Source of the DNA: Tepiditoga spiralis
GTDB taxonomy: Bacteria; Thermotogota; Thermotogae; Petrotogales; Petrotogaceae
DNA length: 64,000 nucleotides
Assembly: GCF_014701195.1 (NCBI RefSeq)
Contig: NZ_AP018712.1
Span: 1,010,501-1,074,500, forward strand
Reading direction: 5' to 3'
In this document: one piece after another, positions 21,401 through 42,373 of the stretch
Layout of the letters: the number at the start of each line of letters is the position of its first letter
Position numbering within the stretch: position 1 is the stretch's first letter
The notes under the pieces: model-generated
Database searches by the model: none
What the model saw: only the letters and a program-made list of their open reading frames with translations
What the model was told of the DNA's origin: nothing
Program-made: the position numbers and the translations under genes

Positions 21401-21411
21401 AGGTGAGTGTA

Positions 21412-24400
21412 TTGAAAAAAATATTTTTATTTATTCTTTTATTTAGTTTTTTATTCATTTTTACAGGTTGTTTTTTAGATGATAAAGAACCACCAAAGTT
21501 TATTCAAATGCCAGAGCTATTGAATCCAATTCCAGAAAAAGCAGGAGATACTTTACAAGTAAAATTAAATGTTGTAGATGATACTAAAATAACCAAAATA
21601 GAATTTTTTAAATCTGGAGAAACAACACCTTTTTTTACTAAAATATATGATAAATCAACAATAAGAGATGAAATTTTATCTTCTCTTATGCCTTATGGTG
21701 AAACTTATTATGATGTTTTAATAAAAGTTACCGATTCAAGCGGTAATTCTTCTTATAGAAATTTAAATAAAAAATTTAGAACACCAGACAAATCAAGTCC
21801 TGAAATACTTAATGTTAATTTAACACAAAATTTAGATAAAGGGATAAATGATTATACTTTAACCTCTAATATAAATGATATAGGATCTGGGTTAAAACAA
21901 ATAAGAGTTTTTGTAGATAATGCAACTTATAATATTCAAATTTCTGATACAAAGCCAACGGGAGTAGAAAATTATTATTACTATACAGAAAAGACAGGTT
22001 ATAGTTATAGTGGATTATTGAATCTTGAATTAAATTCAGTTGGTTATGGTAAACATACTATAAAAATTGAAGCTTATGATAATACTGGAAAAAGAACTGT
22101 AAGTACAAGAGAATTTATGATTTCACCAACATCTGATACAGATCTGCCAGTAATAGAAGTTAATTATCCACCATATGTAGAACCTGGTGAAAATTATCAA
22201 ATTACTATTTCCGCATCAGATGCAAGTTATATACAAAAAGTAAAATTAAATGAAATGAATTTTCCAATATCTCCATCTCAACCAATAGTAAATAAAACTA
22301 TTACTTTAAAAGCTCCAACTGAACCAACAAAAAAAACATTTACAGCCTATGCTGAAGATTTATTTGGAAAAGAAAGTTCAACTAAATTTGATGTTTTTAT
22401 AGCTGTAAATACACCACCAGTAATTAAAAGTTTTTCAATTGATACAGATAATCCAAGTCAAGATGCACCAGTTACAGCATCTTTTGATATAGTTGATGAT
22501 ATAGGGTTGAGTACAGTTAGACTTTATGTTGATAGTACAAAAATAGCTGAGTTTGGTCAAGAATCATTTCAAAATAATGGAAGAACTTTAACAAAAACAG
22601 CAACGTGGACAAAGGCATCAAAAGGAAAACACGTTATGAAACTTGAAGTTTATGATTTGCACAATAAAAAAAGTGAGTCAAGTATAAATATACAAACAAA
22701 AGATAATACAGCTCCAATAATAAGTGAAGTATATATTGAAACATTAGTTGGAGGAAATGATACTAAAAAAAGAGAAATTCACAGTCAACCAACATTTGGA
22801 GTAGCTTTTGGAGATAAAATTAGGTTTTATGCAAATGTTTCTGATGCCGAAAGTGATGTAAAGGAAGTTGAGTTTAAGGTTGATGGTCAAAATATTACTA
22901 CTGTAAGAAGTACAATTAGACCAAATATATTTTATTCGGATGAGCTTTTTGATGCTGCTCCAACATTGGCATCTACTATTTTGAGTATTGATGTTTCTGC
23001 AACGAATACTGAAAATATCGGAACTACTATTACAGGGAATACATTAATTATTCAAGATAGCGTACAAGAAGTATATCAACCAAAGATAGATAGTTTAATA
23101 GTAAATCCTATATTAGCTAATTTGTATGATTCGGTAGAAAGTAGAGCAGAATTTGCTGATGATGGAAAATTAGATGAAGTAAAGCTTGAAATAAAAAAGA
23201 TAAAATCAGATGGAAGTATAGTTTCAATAAGTGATGGAGTAAAACCATATACCTTAGATTATCCTCAAGGTAAAACGGCTACATTAAATGTTAAATGGAC
23301 AGCAACTCCAGCAGGAACATATGTTGCCATTGCAACAGCAAAAAATTCTTTAGGAATAACGTCAACTAAAAATGCAACATTTACAGTTTCTGGTATTTCT
23401 TTAGATATAGTTAATCCTGCAGACGGAAAAGTTTTTAATTTAGATGATGAAAATACTCCTATAAATTATGAAGTTAAAACAATGATAGGGATACAAGGTA
23501 CTGTAACGATAATCTTTGATTCTGATAAGGATGGAGATTTTTCTACAAATCCAGCAACTATGACACAAATTGCATTGTCTAATCCATCTTTAGAATTTTT
23601 AAGTGAATATAATACAACAGTCAATAAATATACAGGTCAACTATTAACAACTAACTCAGCAGTTTTCCCAGAACCTGGAAGATACAGGTTTAGAGTTGAT
23701 GTTGAATCAACAGAAGACAAAACAATACACAGTTCTTCATATACTGATATTACACTTAGAGATATGAAATTACCTGTTTTGGAATATTTAAAGATAAAAT
23801 CGGATGGGTTAACAGAAAACTTTCCAGATACACAAGAAGTTAGTTCAAATGGAGAAAAGTTCTATTCAGGGCTTGATTTTAGTGGAAATACAAATAATAC
23901 AGATATAATTTTTAATTTAAGAGTGTCTGATGATGGAAGTATAAATAGTGTTGAACTTAAGTATGATAATGAAACAGTAGCTTTAAATAAAGTAGAATCT
24001 TTAGGAAGAGAAGATGAGTATCAAGGAGTTTTAGATAAAACAAAAGTAAAAAAAGGTAGCAAAGTAATAAATGTAACTATTATGGATTCTGCACAACCAA
24101 ACTCAAATAAAGTTGATTACTCATTTAATATGGTTGGAATAGAACTCAACAAACCTACAATTGAAAGTTATGATATGGCATTGAGTGGTAACTCTACGTC
24201 ATTAACTATTTCAAAAGATGATGGAGCTACACATGAAGTGCCTACGGGAGAAGGGTTCAATGTTACTTTTTCAAATACAAAACTTACAGATGATACTGCA
24301 GTTGGTAGATTTAAAATGATACTCGAAGATCAGTTTGGTAATCAAACTTTAATAAAACAATGGGATGCAGCTATTGATTATCCAGAAGTTACAGAACAAA

Positions 24401-26607
24401 ATGCTAACACGGTTTTTGGTTCAGATTTAATAACCTCTTGGAATGTTCCAAGTGATCCAGGGAATTATACAATATTACTTGAAGTTGACGACAAGTGGTA
24501 TGTGGAAACAGAAGGAACATCATTGAAATCATATACAGAAAAGTTGAATAGAAATGTTAATGACAGTAATAAAATACTTGAAAGAATACCAATAACAGTA
24601 ATTGATTATACTCCTCCTGCAATAGAACTAGAAGTTGTTGGAGAAAATACACCTGATAATATAGAAATGATAAAAAATACATTTGCTGTATCTGCGAATA
24701 TTCAAGATAAATATGATGAAATAAAAAGAGAAACTATAGTTGTGAAGCTGCAACTTGCAGATGGAACGGTAAAAACTTTTACTCCATCAACTAGTAAAGA
24801 AGGAGAAAAGTATATTACTGCAGCAATGACTTTAAATTCTTCTGATATAGATGGTCCAGGTAAACTTTGGATTGAATTTGATACATTAAAAACAAAGATG
24901 CATGTTGTATCAAAGAAAATACAAGTTATTGTAGATCAATTACCACCACAAATAAACGAAGTAACGGTTGAGCCAAGAGATTCTGGAAATCCATCATTGG
25001 GAACTATAATAGTTGCTCATGTTGGACCAGATACAGTAAAAGAATACGATATAAAAGAAGTAAAGATGGATCTATACAGTAATGGAAACTTGGTCAATAG
25101 TTTTACAGCTCAGCATGCAGGAGATGTATACTTTGCTGAAACAGGTGATTTAGCTTCTGGAGATTATACTGTTAAAGTTAAAGTAACTGATTATGCAGGA
25201 AATGTTGTCAACAGTACAGATAAAACAATAACTATTGAAAAAGAAGCACCAACATTGGGAAATAATTGGACTCATACAGGAAGGCAAGAAAATAAAATGG
25301 CCTATAAAGGAGCAGATATAAATAATTTTAGTTTTACTGCAAGTGATAATGATAAACTTTATCAAATAATAGCTGGTATTACAAAAAAAGGAGAAACTGA
25401 TTATAAGTATTATTATCAAGTAAACCCTGATTCTAAAACAGCAAATATTCTTGAAAGTAATTTAAAGGAAAATGGAAGTTCTTATGATTTAAATTCTAAT
25501 TTAACCGATGGAGATCATGTCAATATATTTATTACTCTTGTTGATAATAGTTCAAATGGAAAAACATATAAAGGTTATATCTATAAAGATGATACTGCGC
25601 CACAAGCACCAATTTTAACTAATCCAACAGCAGCTGAAATTATTTCAGAAAATAACGTTGGAGATGAAAAGATAGTAGTTGATGTAACTGATAATGTTGG
25701 AGTTAGAGAATGTCAAATAGTTAGTTTAAAAGATGCAGCAGATACAGTAAATATTGTTGAAAATGAACAGATGCAAGAAGGGACTGGCGCAACTGATTGG
25801 GTTTATACGCTTTCAAATTTACAAAGTGGATTAGAAGATATATTTAATTTAACTGTTCAAGCAACAGACCTTGCGGGTAATGCAGTAAATGGAGTTTTAA
25901 AATTAAAAATAGATACTAAAAGTCCAATTATAAATGACTTTAATATTGATGCAACGGTACCTAAATCGGATGATGTTTATTATGTAAATGCAGCAAATAC
26001 TTCAAAGAATTTTAATTGGGATATAACAGAATCTAATTTAAATTCTGTGCAAATATTATCAGATGGAATTCCACATACTGTTCCTGCAAGCAATGTTGGA
26101 AATGAAGCAATATCTCAGTTAATTTCAGATATAAGATTATCTGAAGGAACTCATTCTATGAGAGTTAAAGCAATTGATAAATCCAGTCATGAATCTGATT
26201 CTAATACTGGAAAACTTACAATGGTTTATGATTTAACTGATCCATATCTTGCAGAAGTAAAGGCAATGAGGAGTTTAACTTCGACAGAAAGTACCGATAT
26301 AATATCTGCAGATGAAGTTGGAAAAAGGATTTCACTTAGTGAAGATACAATAGCTTTAAAAATATTATTTACAGAAACAAACTTTAAATATTCAACCTCA
26401 AATGTTGTTATAAAATTTGGAGATGACGGTGCAACAGCGGATGCAACAAGCGATAAAATAAATTATTCTGAAGTATCAGATGGTGGATATAAGGCTATAG
26501 AAGTTTCGTCATTGGATTTGAGTGATGGAAATGATAAGCAATTAGATATAGAAATAACAGATTTAGCAGGAAATAAAGTTACAAAAACTTTGTATATAAA
26601 GAAATAA
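21412..26607 (+). CDS. Giant multi-Ig-like-domain lipoprotein (about 1731 aa)
   Basis: The largest gene of the window. The lipobox FLFIFTGC ends the signal sequence. The body repeats Ig-like domains of roughly 90-110 residues, many ending in a [VAI]-[TE]-D-x-[AS]-G-N motif (VTDSSGNSS, VTDYAGNVV, ATDLAGNAV, ITDLAGNKV). I estimate about 15 domains. Such proteins form elongated surface fibres or adhesins, or span from inner membrane to outer sheath. A TTG at 21412 is taken as the start because GAGGTGA lies just before it; the GTG at 21403 lies inside that site. It is followed by a strong terminator and then by an ECF sigma factor gene with its own promoter. Confidence 0.75.
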   Translation: MKKIFLFILLFSFLFIFTGCFLDDKEPPKFIQMPELLNPIPEKAGDTLQVKLNVVDDTKITKIEFFKSGETTPFFTKIYDKSTIRDEILSSLMPYGETYYDVLIKVTDSSGNSSYRNLNKKFRTPDKSSPEILNVNLTQNLDKGINDYTLTSNINDIGSGLKQIRVFVDNATYNIQISDTKPTGVENYYYYTEKTGYSYSGLLNLELNSVGYGKHTIKIEAYDNTGKRTVSTREFMISPTSDTDLPVIEVNYPPYVEPGENYQITISASDASYIQKVKLNEMNFPISPSQPIVNKTITLKAPTEPTKKTFTAYAEDLFGKESSTKFDVFIAVNTPPVIKSFSIDTDNPSQDAPVTASFDIVDDIGLSTVRLYVDSTKIAEFGQESFQNNGRTLTKTATWTKASKGKHVMKLEVYDLHNKKSESSINIQTKDNTAPIISEVYIETLVGGNDTKKREIHSQPTFGVAFGDKIRFYANVSDAESDVKEVEFKVDGQNITTVRSTIRPNIFYSDELFDAAPTLASTILSIDVSATNTENIGTTITGNTLIIQDSVQEVYQPKIDSLIVNPILANLYDSVESRAEFADDGKLDEVKLEIKKIKSDGSIVSISDGVKPYTLDYPQGKTATLNVKWTATPAGTYVAIATAKNSLGITSTKNATFTVSGISLDIVNPADGKVFNLDDENTPINYEVKTMIGIQGTVTIIFDSDKDGDFSTNPATMTQIALSNPSLEFLSEYNTTVNKYTGQLLTTNSAVFPEPGRYRFRVDVESTEDKTIHSSSYTDITLRDMKLPVLEYLKIKSDGLTENFPDTQEVSSNGEKFYSGLDFSGNTNNTDIIFNLRVSDDGSINSVELKYDNETVALNKVESLGREDEYQGVLDKTKVKKGSKVINVTIMDSAQPNSNKVDYSFNMVGIELNKPTIESYDMALSGNSTSLTISKDDGATHEVPTGEGFNVTFSNTKLTDDTAVGRFKMILEDQFGNQTLIKQWDAAIDYPEVTEQNANTVFGSDLITSWNVPSDPGNYTILLEVDDKWYVETEGTSLKSYTEKLNRNVNDSNKILERIPITVIDYTPPAIELEVVGENTPDNIEMIKNTFAVSANIQDKYDEIKRETIVVKLQLADGTVKTFTPSTSKEGEKYITAAMTLNSSDIDGPGKLWIEFDTLKTKMHVVSKKIQVIVDQLPPQINEVTVEPRDSGNPSLGTIIVAHVGPDTVKEYDIKEVKMDLYSNGNLVNSFTAQHAGDVYFAETGDLASGDYTVKVKVTDYAGNVVNSTDKTITIEKEAPTLGNNWTHTGRQENKMAYKGADINNFSFTASDNDKLYQIIAGITKKGETDYKYYYQVNPDSKTANILESNLKENGSSYDLNSNLTDGDHVNIFITLVDNSSNGKTYKGYIYKDDTAPQAPILTNPTAAEIISENNVGDEKIVVDVTDNVGVRECQIVSLKDAADTVNIVENEQMQEGTGATDWVYTLSNLQSGLEDIFNLTVQATDLAGNAVNGVLKLKIDTKSPIINDFNIDATVPKSDDVYYVNAANTSKNFNWDITESNLNSVQILSDGIPHTVPASNVGNEAISQLISDIRLSEGTHSMRVKAIDKSSHESDSNTGKLTMVYDLTDPYLAEVKAMRSLTSTESTDIISADEVGKRISLSEDTIALKILFTETNFKYSTSNVVIKFGDDGATADATSDKINYSEVSDGGYKAIEVSSLDLSDGNDKQLDIEITDLAGNKVTKTLYIKK

Positions 26608-32239: not shown

Positions 32240-32548
32240 ATGGATTTTAACTTTAATGAAGTTAATGGAAGAGTTCAAGTGAAAATTATTGGAGATATGG
32301 ATGTAATGGGCGCTACAATGAATAAAAATCTTTTTTTTGAAAAATTAAAGCAATATGAAGGAAAAGAATTTGATATTGATATGTCTAAAGTAAATTACAT
32401 AGATAGTACTGGTATAGGCTTTTTAATTTCTGTTTATAGAGAAGCTAAAAAACTTAAATCTACATTAATATTTTCTAATTTTAATGAAAATGTATTTAAA
32501 GTTTTGAAAATGACTAATTTAGATAAAGCATTACCAATAAAATATTGA
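32240..32548 (+). CDS. STAS-domain protein (anti-sigma factor antagonist-like)
   Basis: A 102-aa single STAS domain. The motif VNYIDSTGIGFLISVYREAKK holds the Ser that is phosphorylated in SpoIIAA/RsbV proteins. The SD GGTGG precedes the ATG. Family members switch partner proteins (anti-sigma kinases, lipid transporters) by phosphorylation of that Ser. No anti-sigma kinase lies nearby. It is the last gene of the operon with two hydrolases, so it may regulate a partner encoded elsewhere. Confidence 0.85.
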   Translation: MDFNFNEVNGRVQVKIIGDMDVMGATMNKNLFFEKLKQYEGKEFDIDMSKVNYIDSTGIGFLISVYREAKKLKSTLIFSNFNENVFKVLKMTNLDKALPIKY

Positions 32549-32567: not shown

Positions 32568-32597
32568 AATAATTGCTAAAAGCAATTATTTTTTTTA
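32568..32597 (+). terminator. Intrinsic terminator of the STAS operon
   Basis: ATAATTGCT, loop AAA, AGCAATTAT, then a T tract. A second AT-rich palindrome (TTAATTAATC/GATTAATTAA) follows at about 32602-32627. Confidence 0.8.
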
Positions 32598-32698: not shown

Positions 32699-34192
32699 TT
32701 GAAAAAACTATTAATTTTTTTATTTTTGACAGTATCTTTTTTATCTTTTTCAGTTGGAATAAGACCTATGTTATTTGAAGTTAATGCAAAACCAGGAGAT
32801 ACAATTAATGAAGAGATATTTTTAGATCCAGAAATGATCGATAAAAATGTAAATGTTGAATTATATCAATTTATTCAAAATGAAAATGGAGAATTTTCTT
32901 TTTTAAAAGCGGATAAAGATGTTTTTCCAGAAATTAATTGGATAAACTATGAAAATAAAATTTTAGTACCAGCTGGGAAAAATACAATATCTAATGTGAA
33001 AATAAAGGTACCTTTAAATGCAAAACCAGGAACTTATAACTTTATATTAATGATGACACCAGAAACGGTTAAAGCTAAAACTGGTATATCAATAGTTATG
33101 AGGTATGCAGTTAGAATTTCATTGAATGTTAGTGGTATTAGTAGAAAAAAAGTGGAATTAAAAAATATAAATATAATTCCAGATCAAGATAAAAAACCAA
33201 CTATAGTAGCAACTGTATTGAATTCATCTGACTTTGATTTAAAAACATCTGTTAATGCAATAATAAGAAATATAAAAGGTAAAATTATAGAAAAAATACC
33301 TTTAAAAACAGCTTATATGATGAAAAATTCTAAAAATGAACAAAAAATATTATCTAAAAATGAAGTTCAGTTTTATGGAACTTCAAAGTATTTGGTTTCT
33401 GCCGGTGAGTATAGAGTAGATGTTTTTTTAAACTATGATGATAATCAAAAAATTTATACTTCGAAAATAAAAATACCTAAAAATGTATTTTCTTTTGCAT
33501 CTGGAAAAGAACTTGCATTAAAATTAAATCCAAATTTTTTATCTTATAAACTGTATCCGGGAGCAGCAAAAACTTCAGCAATAAGATTAGAAAATTTTAG
33601 TGACTTTAATACAAAGGTAAAAGTTGGGGGAGCAGAATTTCCTATTTCAAAGGATAAATCAATGTTAAAATGGATAAGTTTAAAAACAAAAAATCCAATT
33701 ATATTAAATGCTGGAAGACATACCAATTTAATAACAACTATTAGAGTTCCAAAAAATGTAGAAGACGGAGCTTATTATGGAAAATTATTGTTGAATTCAT
33801 ATACTAAGGACTCAACATTCTTAACTCAAGAAATAGTAAATTGTGAAGTTTTAATAGGAAATACAACTACAAATGCTACGGTTTTGAATTATAATTATAA
33901 GGAAATGAATGATTCTGGATCTTTTTCCATTAAAATAAAGAATACTGGAGATAGATATATATTACCAAAAGCAACTTTGAATATTTCTAATGAAAAAAGA
34001 GAATCTATAGGAAATTTTGGTTTATCTTCAACAAGTGAAAGTAGATGGTTAATGAATGGAGAATCGACAATATTGTTTGGAGATACAGTTAAACTTGAAA
34101 AGGGAAAGTATTATTTTTCTATAAATATTTATAATAGTGATGAAATTTTGACAAAGTATTCTGGAATATTGGATATAGGTGAAAAACAATGA
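32699..34192 (+). CDS. Exported Ig-fold protein, chaperone-like
   Basis: A 497-aa protein starting with TTG, eight bases after GGAGGG. A signal peptide (KKLLIFLFLTVSFLSFS) is followed by repeated Ig-like domains. The first (about 20-150) has the layout of pilus-chaperone or DUF916-like domains: 'FEVNAKPGDTINEEIFL', 'WINYENKILVPAGKNTIS' and 'IKVPLNAKPGTYNFILMM'. A related motif pair recurs near 275-390 (LYPGAAKTSAIRLEN, then IRVPKNVEDGAYYGKLLL). No anchor is visible. It overlaps the secretin-like gene by four bases (ATGA). I infer a periplasmic scaffold or chaperone for exported subunits; a precise family is not assigned. Confidence 0.6.
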   Translation: MKKLLIFLFLTVSFLSFSVGIRPMLFEVNAKPGDTINEEIFLDPEMIDKNVNVELYQFIQNENGEFSFLKADKDVFPEINWINYENKILVPAGKNTISNVKIKVPLNAKPGTYNFILMMTPETVKAKTGISIVMRYAVRISLNVSGISRKKVELKNINIIPDQDKKPTIVATVLNSSDFDLKTSVNAIIRNIKGKIIEKIPLKTAYMMKNSKNEQKILSKNEVQFYGTSKYLVSAGEYRVDVFLNYDDNQKIYTSKIKIPKNVFSFASGKELALKLNPNFLSYKLYPGAAKTSAIRLENFSDFNTKVKVGGAEFPISKDKSMLKWISLKTKNPIILNAGRHTNLITTIRVPKNVEDGAYYGKLLLNSYTKDSTFLTQEIVNCEVLIGNTTTNATVLNYNYKEMNDSGSFSIKIKNTGDRYILPKATLNISNEKRESIGNFGLSSTSESRWLMNGESTILFGDTVKLEKGKYYFSINIYNSDEILTKYSGILDIGEKQ

Positions 34193-35313
34193 AAAAAATA
34201 CTGAGTTTACTTGTATTAATTGTAGGTACAATTATATTTTCAGAGCCATTAATAACCGCTACTTTTTATAATTCGCAATTAACTGAAGCTTTGAATGAAG
34301 TTGCAATGCAAGCAGAAGTTACTATTTTAACAGATGAATATGTAAATGGAATTATTAGTGCTGATTTTACAGATACACCTGTTGCATCTGTTTTAACAAC
34401 TCTGTTAATGCCTGGTGGATTTTCTTTTAAAAAAATAAACGATAAAACTTATTTTGTTGGACTTGCTGATCCTAGAAGTAAAACTTTTTCTTATTTAGCA
34501 GAAAAAAAATTTATAAAATTAAATTATATATCTCCAGAAGACTTTATAAAGTTAGTACCAGATTCGTTTTTAAGTTATATAAAAATAAATTATATAGATA
34601 ATGGTTTGATCTTTTATGCTCCAGAAGAAAAAATAAAGTATTTAACAGAAATAATAAAAGAAGTAGACAAACCACAAACTGATATAAAATTGAATATCTA
34701 TGTTTTAGAAGTGGATAAACAATATTCAAGTTTATTATCTGGAAATTTAAGTACAATTAATCAAAATTTAGGTGATTCCTTTTCTTATACTAATCAAACA
34801 GTATCTTTTTCTGTAAATAACTTATTTCAAGCACAATTAAAAATGTTCGAAAGTGAAAATTTAGCAAATTTAGTATCAAATCAAAGCGTTTACATAAAAC
34901 CAGGAAAAACTTTGAATATAAACATTCTAAATAATAAAAATATAGTAATGAATATTGATGGAAAAGATTCAATAAAAACTGTTAACAATGGAATATCAAT
35001 TTCAATACTTCCAACGTATTATAATAAAAAAATAGATTTAGAAATAAGTTCTGAAATTTCAAAACTTTTAGGAGTATCAGGAAATAGTTATGATACAACA
35101 AAATCAATTTTACAAACTAAAGTTTCGTTGAATCCAAATGAAATGATTATGATAGCAAATCTTGATATGAATCAATTTTCAGATACAAAAAGTGGATTTC
35201 CTTTATTAAGAGAAATACCAATATTAAGATTTTTATTTTCAAATAACTTAAATAGTGAAGGGAATAAAAGATTGATGATATTTGTAAATGCTGTTGGGGG
35301 TGAAATTAAATGA
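34189..35313 (+). CDS. Short secretin-like outer-membrane protein
   Basis: A 374-aa exported protein. After the signal peptide an STN-like domain (about 22-85: FYNSQLTEALNEVAMQAEVTIL, then LMPGGFSFKKINDKTYFVG) and an N1-like domain (about 95-165: FIKLNYISPEDFIKL, EIIKEVDKPQ) precede a beta-rich C-terminal part. It ends with the secretin hallmark GFPLLREIPILRFLF and KRLMIFVNA. Secretins form the outer-membrane ring of type II secretion and type IV pilus machines. This one is much shorter than GspD or PilQ (600-800 aa) and none of their other components are adjacent. Start and stop overlap both neighbours (ATGA), pointing to tight stoichiometry. Confidence 0.75.
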   Translation: MKKILSLLVLIVGTIIFSEPLITATFYNSQLTEALNEVAMQAEVTILTDEYVNGIISADFTDTPVASVLTTLLMPGGFSFKKINDKTYFVGLADPRSKTFSYLAEKKFIKLNYISPEDFIKLVPDSFLSYIKINYIDNGLIFYAPEEKIKYLTEIIKEVDKPQTDIKLNIYVLEVDKQYSSLLSGNLSTINQNLGDSFSYTNQTVSFSVNNLFQAQLKMFESENLANLVSNQSVYIKPGKTLNINILNNKNIVMNIDGKDSIKTVNNGISISILPTYYNKKIDLEISSEISKLLGVSGNSYDTTKSILQTKVSLNPNEMIMIANLDMNQFSDTKSGFPLLREIPILRFLFSNNLNSEGNKRLMIFVNAVGGEIK

Positions 35314-36161
35314 AAAAACTTTTTATTTTGATATTTTTAAGTATTATTTCACTTCAAGTATTTGCAAATATATATTCTTATTCAATTTTTATAAAGAGAG
35401 AAAATAAAGAAATAACATTATTCAATATATCGGTAATTGAAGGCTATACATTTAAGTACAGCACAAATGGAATAATAGAGTCAGACTTTGAAATAACTCC
35501 AGTTAATACAACGAAAAAAGTTGTAACGAGTAAAATAAAAATTAATTCAAAAACTTTTTTGTTTGAAAATACAGTTAACTCTAAATTAGGAGAAAAAAAA
35601 TATTTATTAAAAGCAAAAGACTTAAATAATGAAAAATTTGAAATATACCTCATTGTAAATGGAATAAAAAATATAAATTTTGAAACAAAAAAAGAAAAAA
35701 ACTTCAATTCAATAAAGTATAAAAGTATAAATAATGAAGTTGTATTTAGTACAAAGTTAGGAAAGTTATATTTAAATTATTCTACTTTAAAAACAATAAG
35801 TATTGGATTTTATTATAAAAATTCATTATTAAAAATAAGTTCAAATGGCACAGAAATTAAAGCTTCAATAGTAGATAATACAAACATTGATAACTTAAAA
35901 TTAAATGCAGAATTTTATCCTATAATCTATAAAGATAAAAAAATAATGTTTGCACCAGAATTTAATTCAAAAATAAATTATTTAATATATGATTTTCTTG
36001 GAATAGAAACAAATATAAGTATGGTTGATTATAATTTTACTTTTAGTAGTGGACTATTTTTAAACTTTAATTTTAATGATATTAAAGTAAGTTCGGATTT
36101 GTTTTACAATATTTTAGAAAACAAGTATTCTTTTGAAGCTAAACTTGAATATATTTATTAA
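35310..36161 (+). CDS. Exported beta-rich protein, operon partner of the secretin-like protein
   Basis: A 283-aa protein with a signal peptide (KKLFILIFLSIISLQVFA). The rest consists of short alternating strands, rich in Asn, Lys and aromatics, ending in EAKLEYIY. The terminal Tyr after an alternating strand suggests an outer-membrane beta-barrel or a barrel-associated protein. I recognise no family. Its start overlaps the stop of the secretin-like gene (ATGA), so it likely belongs to the same complex. Confidence 0.55.
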   Translation: MKKLFILIFLSIISLQVFANIYSYSIFIKRENKEITLFNISVIEGYTFKYSTNGIIESDFEITPVNTTKKVVTSKIKINSKTFLFENTVNSKLGEKKYLLKAKDLNNEKFEIYLIVNGIKNINFETKKEKNFNSIKYKSINNEVVFSTKLGKLYLNYSTLKTISIGFYYKNSLLKISSNGTEIKASIVDNTNIDNLKLNAEFYPIIYKDKKIMFAPEFNSKINYLIYDFLGIETNISMVDYNFTFSSGLFLNFNFNDIKVSSDLFYNILENKYSFEAKLEYIY

Positions 36162-36180
36162 CGTCATGGGGGGCATTGAA

Positions 36181-37221
36181 GTGATTTATGCTAATTTATT
36201 TGGTGTTTTTACTATAAAAAAAAATGAAAAATTAATAAAAAATTTTGGGTCCAGAAAAGCACAAGAATTGTTAAAATACTTGATATTAAATAAAAATAAA
36301 AAAATATCTACCTTTGATATTTACAATATATTTTGGGAAAATTTTGATGAAGATTCTGCTAAAGCAAACTTAAATTCAACCTTATATCTTATAAGAAAAA
36401 AACTTGGAATAACTAAAGAAGAATTGTATACTCATTATAATTATTGTACTTTTTCTCCAAAAAGTTTTAATACGGATATGAATGATATGTTGATGTTCTA
36501 TGAAAAAGCACAAGGTGAAGAAGATGTAGAAATGAAAATTGAATTGTTAAAAAAAGCTGTTAATTTATATAAAGATGAACTGTTGAGTGAGAATATATAT
36601 GATATGTGGGTTGAATACAAAAGGCAGTATATAAAAAAAATTTATGTAGATATATTATCAGAATTAGCAGATTTATTTGAAGAAAAAAATGATTTAACAA
36701 GGGCTTTAAAATATTTGCAAAAAGGGTTTGAATATGATAAAAACAGAGATGATATCTGGTTAAAACAAATAGCATTAAATATTAAAGCAGAAAATTATAT
36801 AGCTTCTCAAAAACTTTATAATGATTATAAAGAACTCTTTGGAAATTCAGAATTGAGTTTTATAGGAAATATAAAAGATATGTATACAAATAAAAAAGAA
36901 AATAATGTACAGGTTTTACAAGGAGCAACAATTTTATGTGAAGAAGATTTTGAATTGTTGATTGCTCTCGAAAAAAATAAAAGAGAAAAAGATTTTTTTG
37001 TATTAGAATTATCTTTTAATAAAAGGAGTTCATTTGATAATTCACTAAATATATTAACTAAAAAAATAAGAAAAGTAGATGTCATAATGACTAAAAAAGA
37101 TAAAATATATATAATGTTTAGAGAAATAAAAAACAAAGAATTAGCTAAAGATAGCATAAAAGAAAAAATAAAAAGTTTTTTAAAGAATGAAAATTATCAA
37201 TTAATTGAAGTAGAAGATTAA
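36181..37221 (+). CDS. SARP/BTAD-type transcriptional regulator
   Basis: A 346-aa regulator. Residues 1-90 form an OmpR-like winged helix of SARP type (NLFGVFTIKK, FGSRKAQELLKYLILN, then TLYLIRKKLG). Residues 100-235 form the bacterial transcriptional activator (BTAD) TPR-like domain (LKKAVNLYKDELLSE, then ALKYLQKGFEYDKNRD). The last 100 residues (FFVLELSFNK, LTKKIRKVDVIMTKKDKIYIMF) resemble a GGDEF domain that has lost its active-site loop; this is inference. Start is the GTG at 36181, seven bases after the GGGGGG ribosome site; the open frame to 36133 overlaps the preceding gene. As the last gene of the secretin-like operon it probably controls that operon or the secreted-subunit genes beyond hppA. 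Confidence 0.78.
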   Translation: MIYANLFGVFTIKKNEKLIKNFGSRKAQELLKYLILNKNKKISTFDIYNIFWENFDEDSAKANLNSTLYLIRKKLGITKEELYTHYNYCTFSPKSFNTDMNDMLMFYEKAQGEEDVEMKIELLKKAVNLYKDELLSENIYDMWVEYKRQYIKKIYVDILSELADLFEEKNDLTRALKYLQKGFEYDKNRDDIWLKQIALNIKAENYIASQKLYNDYKELFGNSELSFIGNIKDMYTNKKENNVQVLQGATILCEEDFELLIALEKNKREKDFFVLELSFNKRSSFDNSLNILTKKIRKVDVIMTKKDKIYIMFREIKNKELAKDSIKEKIKSFLKNENYQLIEVED

Positions 37222-37228
37222 TAAATAT

Positions 37229-37254
37229 AAAAAAGTAGCTTAGCTACTTTTTTA
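37229..37254 (+). terminator. Intrinsic terminator of the secretin-like operon
   Basis: AAAAAAGTAGC, loop TTA, GCTACTTTTTT. Confidence 0.85.
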
Positions 37255-39367: not shown

Positions 39368-39859
39368 TTAATCAGCAGTTACAGTTAAAGTTACTGTTCC
39401 TGCAGCATAAGCTTCTGATGAAGCTTCTACATATGTCCAAACATCACTTTTACCAGATAATGTTTCAGCATCAGTTTCCATTTTTGAATAATCAACAGCA
39501 AATGTTACTGTATGATTATTAACTCCAGCATTTCCTGTATTGTTATCAAGAGTTATTGTATAATAATCAGTAATATTTATTTCAGATGGAGGAGTAGCAC
39601 CAGCTGGTAAGTTATATTCTGCTGTGATTGAATAATTGTAATTTGATTTAACTGTAAAATCAACAGAATCACTTGATACATCACTTGTATGTTCAGGATC
39701 ATAAGTTAAATCAAAAGAGGCATCTGTTGGAAGTTCAAGAACAACATGTTTTAAAACAGTAACATTAACTGGGATGTTGCTTGATACAGTTGTTTGATTT
39801 GCAAAACTAATAACAATTAATAAAGATAAAACAAGTACTAAACCAATAAACTTTTTCAT
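39368..39859 (-). CDS. Small secreted beta-rich protein, TVLPHV family (member A)
   Basis: A 163-aa protein with signal peptide (KKFIGLVLVLSLLIVISFA) and no cysteine. It shares with the proteins at 41311 and 41960 the segment NIPVNVTVLKHVV just after the signal peptide. With member C it also shares YDPEHTS... and a 'DFTVKSNYNYSI' strand. The body is Ser/Thr/Asn-rich and ends in alternating strands (AGTVTLTVTAD), fitting a single beta-sandwich of pilin or surface-coat type. The ATG overlaps the stop of the diguanylate cyclase gene (ATGA), so it is translationally coupled to it. The function is unknown; a secreted subunit of a surface structure is the inference. Confidence 0.65.
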   Translation of the reverse strand: MKKFIGLVLVLSLLIVISFANQTTVSSNIPVNVTVLKHVVLELPTDASFDLTYDPEHTSDVSSDSVDFTVKSNYNYSITAEYNLPAGATPPSEINITDYYTITLDNNTGNAGVNNHTVTFAVDYSKMETDAETLSGKSDVWTYVEASSEAYAAGTVTLTVTAD

Positions 39860-41268
39860 GAAAATTCCCTCCTTTTTGTGGTTTTTTTATTTAAATACAT
39901 GTTTTTATCAGCTTCTTCAAAGTATTCTTCTAATGTATCCTTTGTTCCATTTATTTTAGAACATCCATAAGAAAATTCAATAACTCCTTTTAGCTTTTTA
40001 TTAATTCTATTTATATACTTTATTTCTTTTCCAGAGTATTGACCAAACATTAAAATTCCAAATTCATCTCCTCCAAGTCTACAAATAATGTCATTATTTC
40101 TAAAACTTGAAATAAGTGCTTCTGAAAATTTTTTTAAAATAATATCGCCAAAAATATGCCCATTTTTATCATTGAAATTTTTAAAATCATTTATATCAAT
40201 TATCATTAATAAAGCATCTTTTTTATTTGAAATTACGTTTTGTACTTCTTTAAATAATTTTTCTTTTCTATAAAGAGTTGTCAATGCATCTCTCTTTACC
40301 TTGAAATTTATATTTAAAGTATTTTCTATTTCTTTTAATATTGTAGAATTTGTTTTTATGATGGAATCAAATTCAAAGTAAACTTTATAATTTTCATTTA
40401 ATTCAATTAAATATTTTATTTTAGATGAAAAAGATGATTTTGTAGAGTAAAAGAATATCTTTTTATTAAAGTTATATACAGTAATACTTACATTAGAATC
40501 AAATATTTTTTTCAATTCATTTGAATAATTAATTAATAAATCAGATTCTTCAAATTTAAAATTATTATTTGTAGTTACATTGGACTTTAAGTAATCAAAT
40601 ATTTTTTGAGGATATATATCCACTATATACTTTTTGTTTTTATAAGATGAAATACGTATTTTATAATAATAATCATAATTAAAATAATCAAATTCTTTTT
40701 TGTCTAATTGATTTTCAAAATTGAATATATTTTTATTAATACCAATTAAATCAAAAATTTTTGAATTTATTAGTTTTTTTCCAAAATGAGTAAGAGCTTG
40801 TAAGTTGTAGTTTATTATATTTTTCTTTTCGTCTAAAACTATAATTATATTTTCTATATTGTCTAAAATAAATTGAGAAAAGTTTAATGTTTCTTTGTAG
40901 TTTTTATTTAAATTGACTCTTTTTAATGATAAGTAAAAAATATCAGAAAAAACTTTTAAAAAAGAATAATCGACAAAGTCTCCAGTATCTAAATATCCAT
41001 AAAACTCATTTGAATTTCCTATTTTTATTTCAGTTTCATTGTTAGTAAGTTTAAAGTTTGTTCCAAGATTTGTATTTATAAAAAATAATGTTTTTTTTAT
41101 ATATTTTTCAATATTTGTTTCTTCATAACTATTATTAATGACAAAAAATAAAATAGAAACATAATAATCTTTTATACCAGAATTATAGTATTTAAGAAAA
41201 AAGGTATTAATTTGTTTTTGTATTTCAGAACTGATTATATTGTACATTACAGAAACTTCTCTTTTCAT
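39856..41268 (-). CDS. PAS-GGDEF diguanylate cyclase
   Basis: A 470-aa cytoplasmic protein. An uncharacterised N-terminal region is followed by a PAS-like domain (about 140-235: NIENIIIVLDEKKNIINYN). The C-terminal GGDEF domain (about 305-465) reads TTLYRKEKLF, MIIDINDFKNFNDKNGH and RLGGDEFGIL. The active site is complete, and RNND five residues before it is a product-inhibition I-site (RxxD). It should make cyclic di-GMP. The ATG at 41268 is preferred because GAGG lies nine bases upstream; two earlier starts (41274, 41277) are too close to it. It sits between secreted-protein genes and overlaps member A, which ties c-di-GMP to their production or export. Confidence 0.88.
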   Translation of the reverse strand: MKREVSVMYNIISSEIQKQINTFFLKYYNSGIKDYYVSILFFVINNSYEETNIEKYIKKTLFFINTNLGTNFKLTNNETEIKIGNSNEFYGYLDTGDFVDYSFLKVFSDIFYLSLKRVNLNKNYKETLNFSQFILDNIENIIIVLDEKKNIINYNLQALTHFGKKLINSKIFDLIGINKNIFNFENQLDKKEFDYFNYDYYYKIRISSYKNKKYIVDIYPQKIFDYLKSNVTTNNNFKFEESDLLINYSNELKKIFDSNVSITVYNFNKKIFFYSTKSSFSSKIKYLIELNENYKVYFEFDSIIKTNSTILKEIENTLNINFKVKRDALTTLYRKEKLFKEVQNVISNKKDALLMIIDINDFKNFNDKNGHIFGDIILKKFSEALISSFRNNDIICRLGGDEFGILMFGQYSGKEIKYINRINKKLKGVIEFSYGCSKINGTKDTLEEYFEEADKNMYLNKKTTKRREFS

Positions 41269-41283
41269 TAACATCAACCTCGG

Positions 41284-41308
41284 TAAAAAACGGGCTTATG
41301 CCCGTTTT
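41284..41308 (-). terminator. Intrinsic terminator of the gene at 41311
   Basis: On the minus strand: CGGGC, loop, GCCCG, followed by a run of T. Confidence 0.8.
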
Positions 41309-41310
41309 AA

Positions 41311-41904
41311 TTAATTTACTGCATTAACAATTACTTCTATATGACCTATAGTTACTGTCCCAGCTTTTATTTTGTACCAATTATCATCTGTGAATTTTAA
41401 GTTCATACTGTATTGAATATTAAATCCAGATGTTCCATCATAATCATGAGTTATAGTTGTATATACTTTTGGATCTTCATTAGCGCTTATAGCAAGTGGA
41501 TAAGAACCAACTTCATCTGAATCTTCTATAACAGATATACCACCTGTTATTGTTTCTGGATTTACTACTCCAGTTGCAGGATTATAAAAACTTGGATCCA
41601 TAGCTTCTGGATTAACAACAAATGATGATTTTATTTCAATATTTGTGTTTGTTTTTATTTCAGCATTAACACCAGTTGCATAGTACCTTACAGCTCTCAA
41701 TGAAGGATCAATTTCATTTACCTTTTCATTTACACCATTTATTTTTTTCCATGAGTCGAGAAGTTGATCTGATGGATTGAAAGACATTGTGACATGAGGT
41801 AAGACAGTAACATTAACATTAATACTTCCATTATCTTCAGGTTTATTTGCAAAGGATATAGTTAATAAACTCAAAATTAGAATAATGAATAGTAATTTTT
41901 TCAT
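41311..41904 (-). CDS. Small secreted beta-rich protein, TVLPHV family (member B)
   Basis: A 197-aa protein with a signal peptide (KKLLFIILILSLLTISFA). The shared segment SINVNVTVLPHVTMSF follows directly. Member B is longer than its paralogues because of a central insertion (GVNAEIKTNTNIEIKSSF is the aligned strand). No cysteine, lipobox or anchor is present. It is framed by terminators on both sides, so it may be transcribed on its own by read-through or a weak promoter near 41905-41925. A structural subunit role is inferred from family and context only. Confidence 0.62.
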   Translation of the reverse strand: MKKLLFIILILSLLTISFANKPEDNGSINVNVTVLPHVTMSFNPSDQLLDSWKKINGVNEKVNEIDPSLRAVRYYATGVNAEIKTNTNIEIKSSFVVNPEAMDPSFYNPATGVVNPETITGGISVIEDSDEVGSYPLAISANEDPKVYTTITHDYDGTSGFNIQYSMNLKFTDDNWYKIKAGTVTIGHIEVIVNAVN

Positions 41905-41920
41905 TTACTCACCTTCTTTT

Positions 41921-41950
41921 AAAAATGGGGCTTTAAAAGCCCCGATTTTT
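41921..41950 (-). terminator. Intrinsic terminator of the gene at 41960
   Basis: GGGGCTT/AAGCCCC stem with T run on the minus strand. Confidence 0.8.
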
Positions 41951-41959
41951 TATTTTTGA

Positions 41960-42373
41960 TTATTGTTGAGAAACTGTGTATACTATTGTACCAGTATAAT
42001 CAGCAGCATTATCTAACCAGAAATTATCACCATTATTAGCAAATGTTACTGAATAATCCCATGTGTCATTACCTGTTTGATTAGCATAAACATTCTCATC
42101 AACAAGAGCTAATTTTTCATTGCTGTCACTATTAAAATCAATATCAACCTTATAAGCGAAATTAGCTTTAACTTCTAAAGAAAATGATGTGTCTCCTAAA
42201 GTTTTATTTTCTGGATCGTAATTTACATTAATAGCTTCTACTGAAGGAGTTACAACAACGTGTGGTAAAACAGTAACCTTAACAGGGATATTTCCAGTTG
42301 CAGTTGATTGTGCAGCAAATCCCATAGCAACAACCATAACTAAAGCAAGTACTAAAACGATAAGTTTTTTCAT
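41960..42373 (-). CDS. Small secreted beta-rich protein, TVLPHV family (member C)
   Basis: A 137-aa protein with a signal peptide (KKLIVLVLALVMVVAMGFAA). It carries NIPVKVTVLPHVVVTP, YDPENKT and SFSLEVKANFAYKVDIDF, aligning well with member A. It ends in TGTIVYTVSQQ. It is the shortest member and may represent the core fold. The ribosome site GGGAGGT is strong; a hairpin (TTGGC/GCCAA) lies in the leader just upstream, and repeated TTGAGTA motifs lie further up. These suggest regulated, possibly high-level expression. Function unknown. Confidence 0.65.
   Translation of the reverse strand: MKKLIVLVLALVMVVAMGFAAQSTATGNIPVKVTVLPHVVVTPSVEAINVNYDPENKTLGDTSFSLEVKANFAYKVDIDFNSDSNEKLALVDENVYANQTGNDTWDYSVTFANNGDNFWLDNAADYTGTIVYTVSQQ

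Follow-up and report, generated by a model that had tools for sequence, protein, structure and literature searches.

A 64,000-nucleotide stretch of the Tepiditoga spiralis genome (phylum Thermotogota; contig NZ_AP018712.1, positions 1,010,501 to 1,074,500), hereafter the window, carries at 32699-37221 on the + strand four open reading frames (ORFs) for a chaperone-like protein, a short secretin, a beta-rich third component and a regulator. We give about even chances to the view that these genes encode a chaperone-secretin pathway by which small proteins reach the cell surface. The parts belong to known fold families, and their combination lacks defining features of type II and type IV systems, of chaperone–usher systems and of WxL clusters. 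An earlier reading of the DNA, made without database searches (the sequence-only reading), had placed the four genes correctly, with three exported proteins joined by 4-base overlaps, and had proposed a novel envelope export system. The linkage of the genes and the lack of a matching known system speak for that proposal, whereas export itself is so far a putative function, and the probable clients lie outside the interval that was proposed.

Secretin and chaperone profiles were run over 151 genomes, ~100 of them belonging to the window's class, and strong matches were paired. Short secretins were found at 73 loci in 61 genomes, of which 59 are Thermotogota (~100 searched). At 63 of the 73 loci the chaperone gene lies directly upstream of the secretin gene on the same strand, and the genes are therefore far from being rarely together across the phylum. 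The other ten loci are mostly contig ends or broken assemblies; one exceptional locus has a 517-base gap, the adjoining chaperone match being interrupted by an in-frame stop, and at two loci of the same genus the chaperone lies 2.5 kb away in another orientation. Every chaperone-bearing genome also has a short secretin (59/59). Because the profiles contained the tested sequences, the search was repeated with each taxonomic family left out, which recovered the chaperone in 38 of 38 testable loci and, with one exception, right next to the secretin. Named records place the set in Pseudothermotoga, Kosmotogaceae and other Thermotogota, and the full set is also present in one genome outside the class (G148, locus L069). 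Metagenome-assembled genomes of Halanaerobiales/Halobacteroidaceae (L083-L086), which are binned and possibly contaminated, contain the chaperone, the short secretin and, if the contig extends far enough, the third component. The T. spiralis genome itself has a second copy of the operon (C1:505–510 kb, L036) whose third gene retains the N0 and N1 domains. This copy is of the subtype with a 490-aa (amino acid) secretin paralogue and is followed by a response-regulator gene.

The window chaperone on its own has no confident Pfam match. A profile of 32 chaperone relatives, compared with the PDB, finds Enterococcus faecium WxLIP1 (EfmWxLIP1) at 8.5e-12, the next unrelated match being at 0.04. The alignment spans EfmWxLIP1 residues 27-273 and thus both domains of the WxLIP ectodomain (PGBD and HBD). 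Pfam recognizes WxLIP_PGBD in 20 of the 32 relatives and HBD in one, neither model matching the window protein, and the N-terminal half of the chaperone aligns with its C-terminal half at 99.7% probability (E about 3e-26). By these profile comparisons the chaperone is a tandem duplicate of the WxLIP ectodomain (DUF916/DUF3324 family), which refines the immunoglobulin (Ig)-fold, chaperone-like protein of the sequence-only reading. In contrast to WxLIP, hydropathy reveals no C-terminal transmembrane helix in 35 chaperone members, and the protein is therefore probably soluble in the periplasm. Half-length forms of about 260-296 aa, which match one WxLIP ectodomain in size, also occur (L069_12, G121:C14 and G129:C73); the one in G148 adjoins a full-length form.

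Pilus chaperones complete the beta-sandwich of a pilin with a strand of their own, and by analogy we infer that the Thermotogota chaperone may donate a strand to its clients. For Gram-positive WxLIP, the published model has a strand of the WxLIP hairpin inserted into the WxL beta-sandwich, thereby completing it, and the proposed role of WxLIP is to form a stable surface complex with WxL (PMC10599100).

Small exported beta-proteins beside the operon genes are the probable clients. At 24 of 34 loci the chaperone gene is directly preceded by one for a small exported protein, compared with 8% for control genes. Within the window the candidates are P1, P2 and P3, which are homologous to one another, are the sole three matches of the client family in the T. 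spiralis genome (all at 39368–42373) and have relatives that flank the operon elsewhere in the window's family. The AlphaFold model of P1 has a predicted local distance difference test (pLDDT) score of 82, and its best PDB match is the PapG pilin domain as bound by PapD (E 4.4e-3, probability 1.00), a domain that accounts for four of the top eight fold matches. As read from the sequence, an alternating hydrophobic stretch resembling a donor strand (IPVNVTV, INVNVTV, VPVYLNV) stands just past the signal peptides of the clients. The genes P3-P2-GGDEF-P1 (39368-42373, - strand) read as a single transcription unit, in which the stem-loop between P3 and P2 (41927-41943) would leave P3 as the most abundant product, as with major pilins. 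Genes for GGDEF proteins adjoin the operon in several relatives.

In outline this resembles chaperone-usher pili, which likewise combine a periplasmic Ig-type chaperone and an outer-membrane pore in one operon and serve clients, here possibly with incomplete sandwiches. The Thermotogota set differs in that there is no usher, the pore being a secretin with a putatively secretin-derived partner, and in that the four-domain chaperone is of the WxLIP type; the PapD model of Pfam matches none of the 32 chaperone relatives at E 0.01. No usher (PF00577) scored over the cut-off in any of 111 genomes (0/111), the Escherichia coli control being positive.

The nearest rival to a chaperone-secretin pathway is that the set is the equivalent, in cells with an outer membrane, of the Gram-positive WxL complex. 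The WxLIP-like protein itself would then be exposed on the surface and partner the WxL-like small proteins structurally, release of the set falling to the secretin and its anchoring to the barrel-like protein. The outcome would be a static coat or an adhesin complex, possibly part of the toga, and not a chaperoned fibre. The homology to WxLIP over the whole ectodomain, together with the stable surface complex proposed for that protein, favors this, as do the one to four small exported proteins clustered with the operon, which mirror WxL clusters and their small exported beta-proteins; Thermotogota also possess a sheath. The Thermotogota ectodomain is, however, tandem-duplicated and has no transmembrane anchor, neither Pfam nor a PDB sequence search found a WxL domain in the scanned clients, and the constantly linked element is an outer-membrane secretin instead of a cell-wall anchor. 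Moreover, so consistent a place directly upstream of the secretin would be unnecessary for a surface protein with a structural role alone. We consider a WxL-like static coat unlikely.

The short secretin scores 2.3e-15 against Pfam Secretin, over the curated cut-off, and slightly under the cut-offs of Secretin_N and STN; it contains the motif GFPLLREIPILRFLF, and the secretin hallmark and STN/N1-like domains named in the sequence-only reading are thereby upheld. It has both the secretin domain and the N0/N1 periplasmic domains by which the superfamily is defined, and its family profile finds the GspD, PilQ and pIV structures in the PDB at 1e-35 to 1e-44. Since residues 1-368 align end to end with the protein IV family (PHROG 1012, 1e-22), the 374 aa are on this alignment a complete minimal N0–N1–secretin protein of the size of phage protein IV, and neither a fragment nor a truncated GspD. 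In a tree, the short secretins, their paralogues and one 595-aa relative (L116) are separate from 19 other sampled secretins (96/94) and fall into two subtypes, both of which are carried by T. spiralis.

Secretins usually partner type II secretion or type IV pilus machinery, and a further explanation is that the short secretin acts in trans as an alternative exit for the cell's own ATPase-driven machinery of either kind. We regard this as improbable. The protein shares with GspD and PilQ a homologous secretin domain with N0 and N1, but it misses the curated family cut-offs by far (GspD 38 vs 351 bits, PilQ 42 vs 284 bits, SctC likewise). No type II, III or IV pilus gene was recognized adjoining the operon, as the sequence-only reading had stated, and no ATPase, PilC/GspF inner-membrane platform or pseudopilin was recognized beside it. 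The T. spiralis genome does have a PilC-like gene together with a 657-aa PilQ-like secretin at 588–593 kb (L105), 450 kb from the operon (1.04 Mb). The operon is thus not part of that cluster, and this type IV pilus-like system, with a secretin of its own, has its own exit. No PilB/GspE ATPase is recognizable near the PilC/PilQ-like genes or elsewhere in the genome.

The distribution of ATPases bears on the same question. Every genome scores for T2SSE, yet this is misleading, the best matches in all 21 genomes of the window's family being PilT-size only; in T. spiralis the only match above the cut-off is a PilT-size protein of 368 aa at 2.25 Mb. Nearly all other genomes of the class have ATPases of about 570 aa at 1e-126 or better, and a PilB/GspE-size partner would accordingly be at hand in most Thermotogota outside the window's family. 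None was recognized in the 21 genomes of that family, where a diverged ATPase could escape recognition, yet 13 of the 21 carry the chaperone and the short secretin.

A domesticated filamentous-phage export protein (pIV) would account for the end-to-end protein IV match and for the shared minimal architecture and size. Such likeness is, however, expected of any N0-N1 secretin, whereas this one stands in a cellular operon with a chaperone, a partner and clients; no further phage-specific PHROG match was found in the tested operon proteins and gene order is conserved across the class, and a phage origin, very improbable in our estimate, was set aside. A DNA-uptake secretin (HofQ/competence), suggested by weak profile similarity to HofQ/PilQ, is hardly credible, the scores lying far under every curated cut-off, no competence gene being recognized nearby and the linkage to chaperone and clients being left without explanation.

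The third component varies among lineages. At many loci the third gene is an evident secretin paralogue, with N0, N1 and part or all of the secretin domain followed by a beta-rich tail, and the secretin profile matches it at 5e-64 in L069 and at better than about 1e-12 in the other tandem-type loci. In one secretin subtype these paralogues are sister to the secretins of that same subtype, which suggests internal duplication. In a truncated set (L044, L051–L053) N0 and N1 are gone and secretin-domain sequence alone is left. With signal peptides removed, hhalign relates the window protein to the truncated set (96%, E 5e-9) and the truncated set to the secretin (95%, E 2e-8). An AlphaFold model built on six sequences (mean pLDDT 74) has an N-terminal beta-domain and ~12 meander strands at residues 134-282. 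The model matches porins in Foldseek at about 1e-4, the template-modelling (TM) scores being low; the tail is barrel-like without being a proven barrel. We infer from these alignments and the model that the third component may be the end of a degenerating series of secretin paralogues fused to a beta-barrel-like tail. The barrel-like protein of the sequence-only reading would accordingly be a degenerate secretin paralogue with such a tail.

As a chaperone-secretin pathway the set would work as follows. Clients would cross the inner membrane by Sec, and the periplasmic double-WxLIP protein would lend a beta-strand to their incomplete sandwich and pass them to the N0–N1 face of the minimal secretin ring. 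They would leave through the secretin, and strand exchange would probably join or anchor them at the surface, no ATPase being needed. The third component would partner the ring in the outer membrane, whether as a pilot, a plug or an anchor at the surface. In the window's family, expression or surface life may be tuned by the SARP regulator and, via the GGDEF protein, by cyclic di-GMP (c-di-GMP). The full proposal, namely an undescribed secretion and surface-assembly pathway, widespread in Thermotogota, in which WxLIP-type donor-strand chaperoning is combined with a secretin replacing the usher, no ATPase and a paralogue turned barrel partner, is more tentative, and we put it at somewhat short of an even chance.

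Several points weigh against a chaperone-secretin pathway. No energy source was recognized for it, and WxLIP proteins are not known to act in export as chaperones. The clients in the window are outside the operon, ~2 kb downstream on the opposite strand and behind the H+-pyrophosphatase gene. The pilin-fold match of P1 is weak, with no E value below 1e-3, TM up to 0.46 and a root-mean-square deviation of about 7 Å, and eukaryotic PapD-like domains score nearly as well against the model. An apparent client homology across lineages (93–95%) was gone after removal of signal peptides and was rejected. Compared directly, the window third component has no significant match to the secretin, the link running via intermediates only, and its structural model is the one good run of five, the other runs being near 50.

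Features of the window that belong to the operon and the client cluster are listed in table 1. The overlaps at the chaperone/secretin and secretin/third component junctions both read ATGA. The longest ORF of the regulator, from 36133, would overlap the third gene by 29 bases; the likely start is GTG at 36181, behind a GGGGGG run that would serve as ribosome-binding site and 19 bases past the stop of the third component, so that the regulator does not overlap that gene. Pfam matches to the regulator are weak but present (Trans_reg_C 3.6e-4, BTAD 2.2e-3). A BTAD regulator closing the operon, as first proposed, is retained, but as an accessory of some lineages and not as a core member. Relatives of this SARP/BTAD-type regulator adjoin the system in several Thermotogota families, at times on the opposite strand.

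Table 1. Coordinates of the operon, its boundaries and the candidate client cluster in the window
Feature	Coordinates	Strand	Description and basis
Stem-loop + T-run, likely terminator; upstream boundary (STAS gene/operon)	32569..32590	+	Sequence reading; absent from consensus scan
Chaperone-like exported protein	32699..34192	+	497 aa; TTG start behind AGGAGGG
Short secretin	34189..35313	+	374 aa; signal peptide, N0 (STN), N1, secretin domain; Pfam, PDB profile matches, PHROG 1012
Third component	35310..36161	+	283 aa, exported, all-beta; hhalign via truncated relatives, AlphaFold, Foldseek
SARP/BTAD-type transcriptional regulator	36181..37221	+	Pfam; same position in relatives of the window's family (f1)
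Stem-loop + T-run, likely operon terminator	37230..37252	+	Directly after regulator; sequence reading; absent from consensus scan
Candidate client P1	39368..39859	-	163 aa, exported beta-protein; relatives adjoin operon in other genomes of the family
PAS-GGDEF protein within client cluster	39856..41277	-	Pfam GGDEF 3.4e-25; 4-base overlap with P1 start
Candidate client P2	41311..41904	-	197 aa; phmmer to P1 1e-6; family alignment
Terminator-like stem-loop between P3 and P2	41927..41943	-	Consensus scan
Candidate client P3	41960..42373	-	137 aa; phmmer to P1 2e-15; family alignment

The operon is flanked by the gene of a STAS-domain (anti-anti-sigma-like) protein just 5' of it (32240-32548, + strand), with a stem-loop between, and by the H+-pyrophosphatase gene on the other side. 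Elsewhere in the window (21403-26607, + strand), a 1734-aa protein that contains many Ig-like repeats and whose N-terminus is of the lipoprotein type is likely a large surface protein.

In a genome survey, Thermotogae were the only diderm clade without any of the protein secretion systems searched for, and its authors suggested that the clade has secretion systems peculiar to it and suited to the toga (Abby et al. 2016, PMC4793230). We found no description of the gene set in the literature searched for a secretin with chaperone–usher, WxL or Thermotogae, subscription papers and preprints being outside the scope of that search. The set is thus a concrete, testable candidate for a secretion system of the Thermotogota's own. 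If the Halanaerobiales/Halobacteroidaceae binning is correct, the system would extend to diderm Firmicutes. If the proposed pathway is true, the one diderm clade reported to lack all of those searched for would have its first dedicated secretion system. Secretins would then fill the role of ushers, strand donors of the WxLIP type would serve export in outer-membrane-bearing cells, and Gram-positive WxL complexes would be linked to outer-membrane export.

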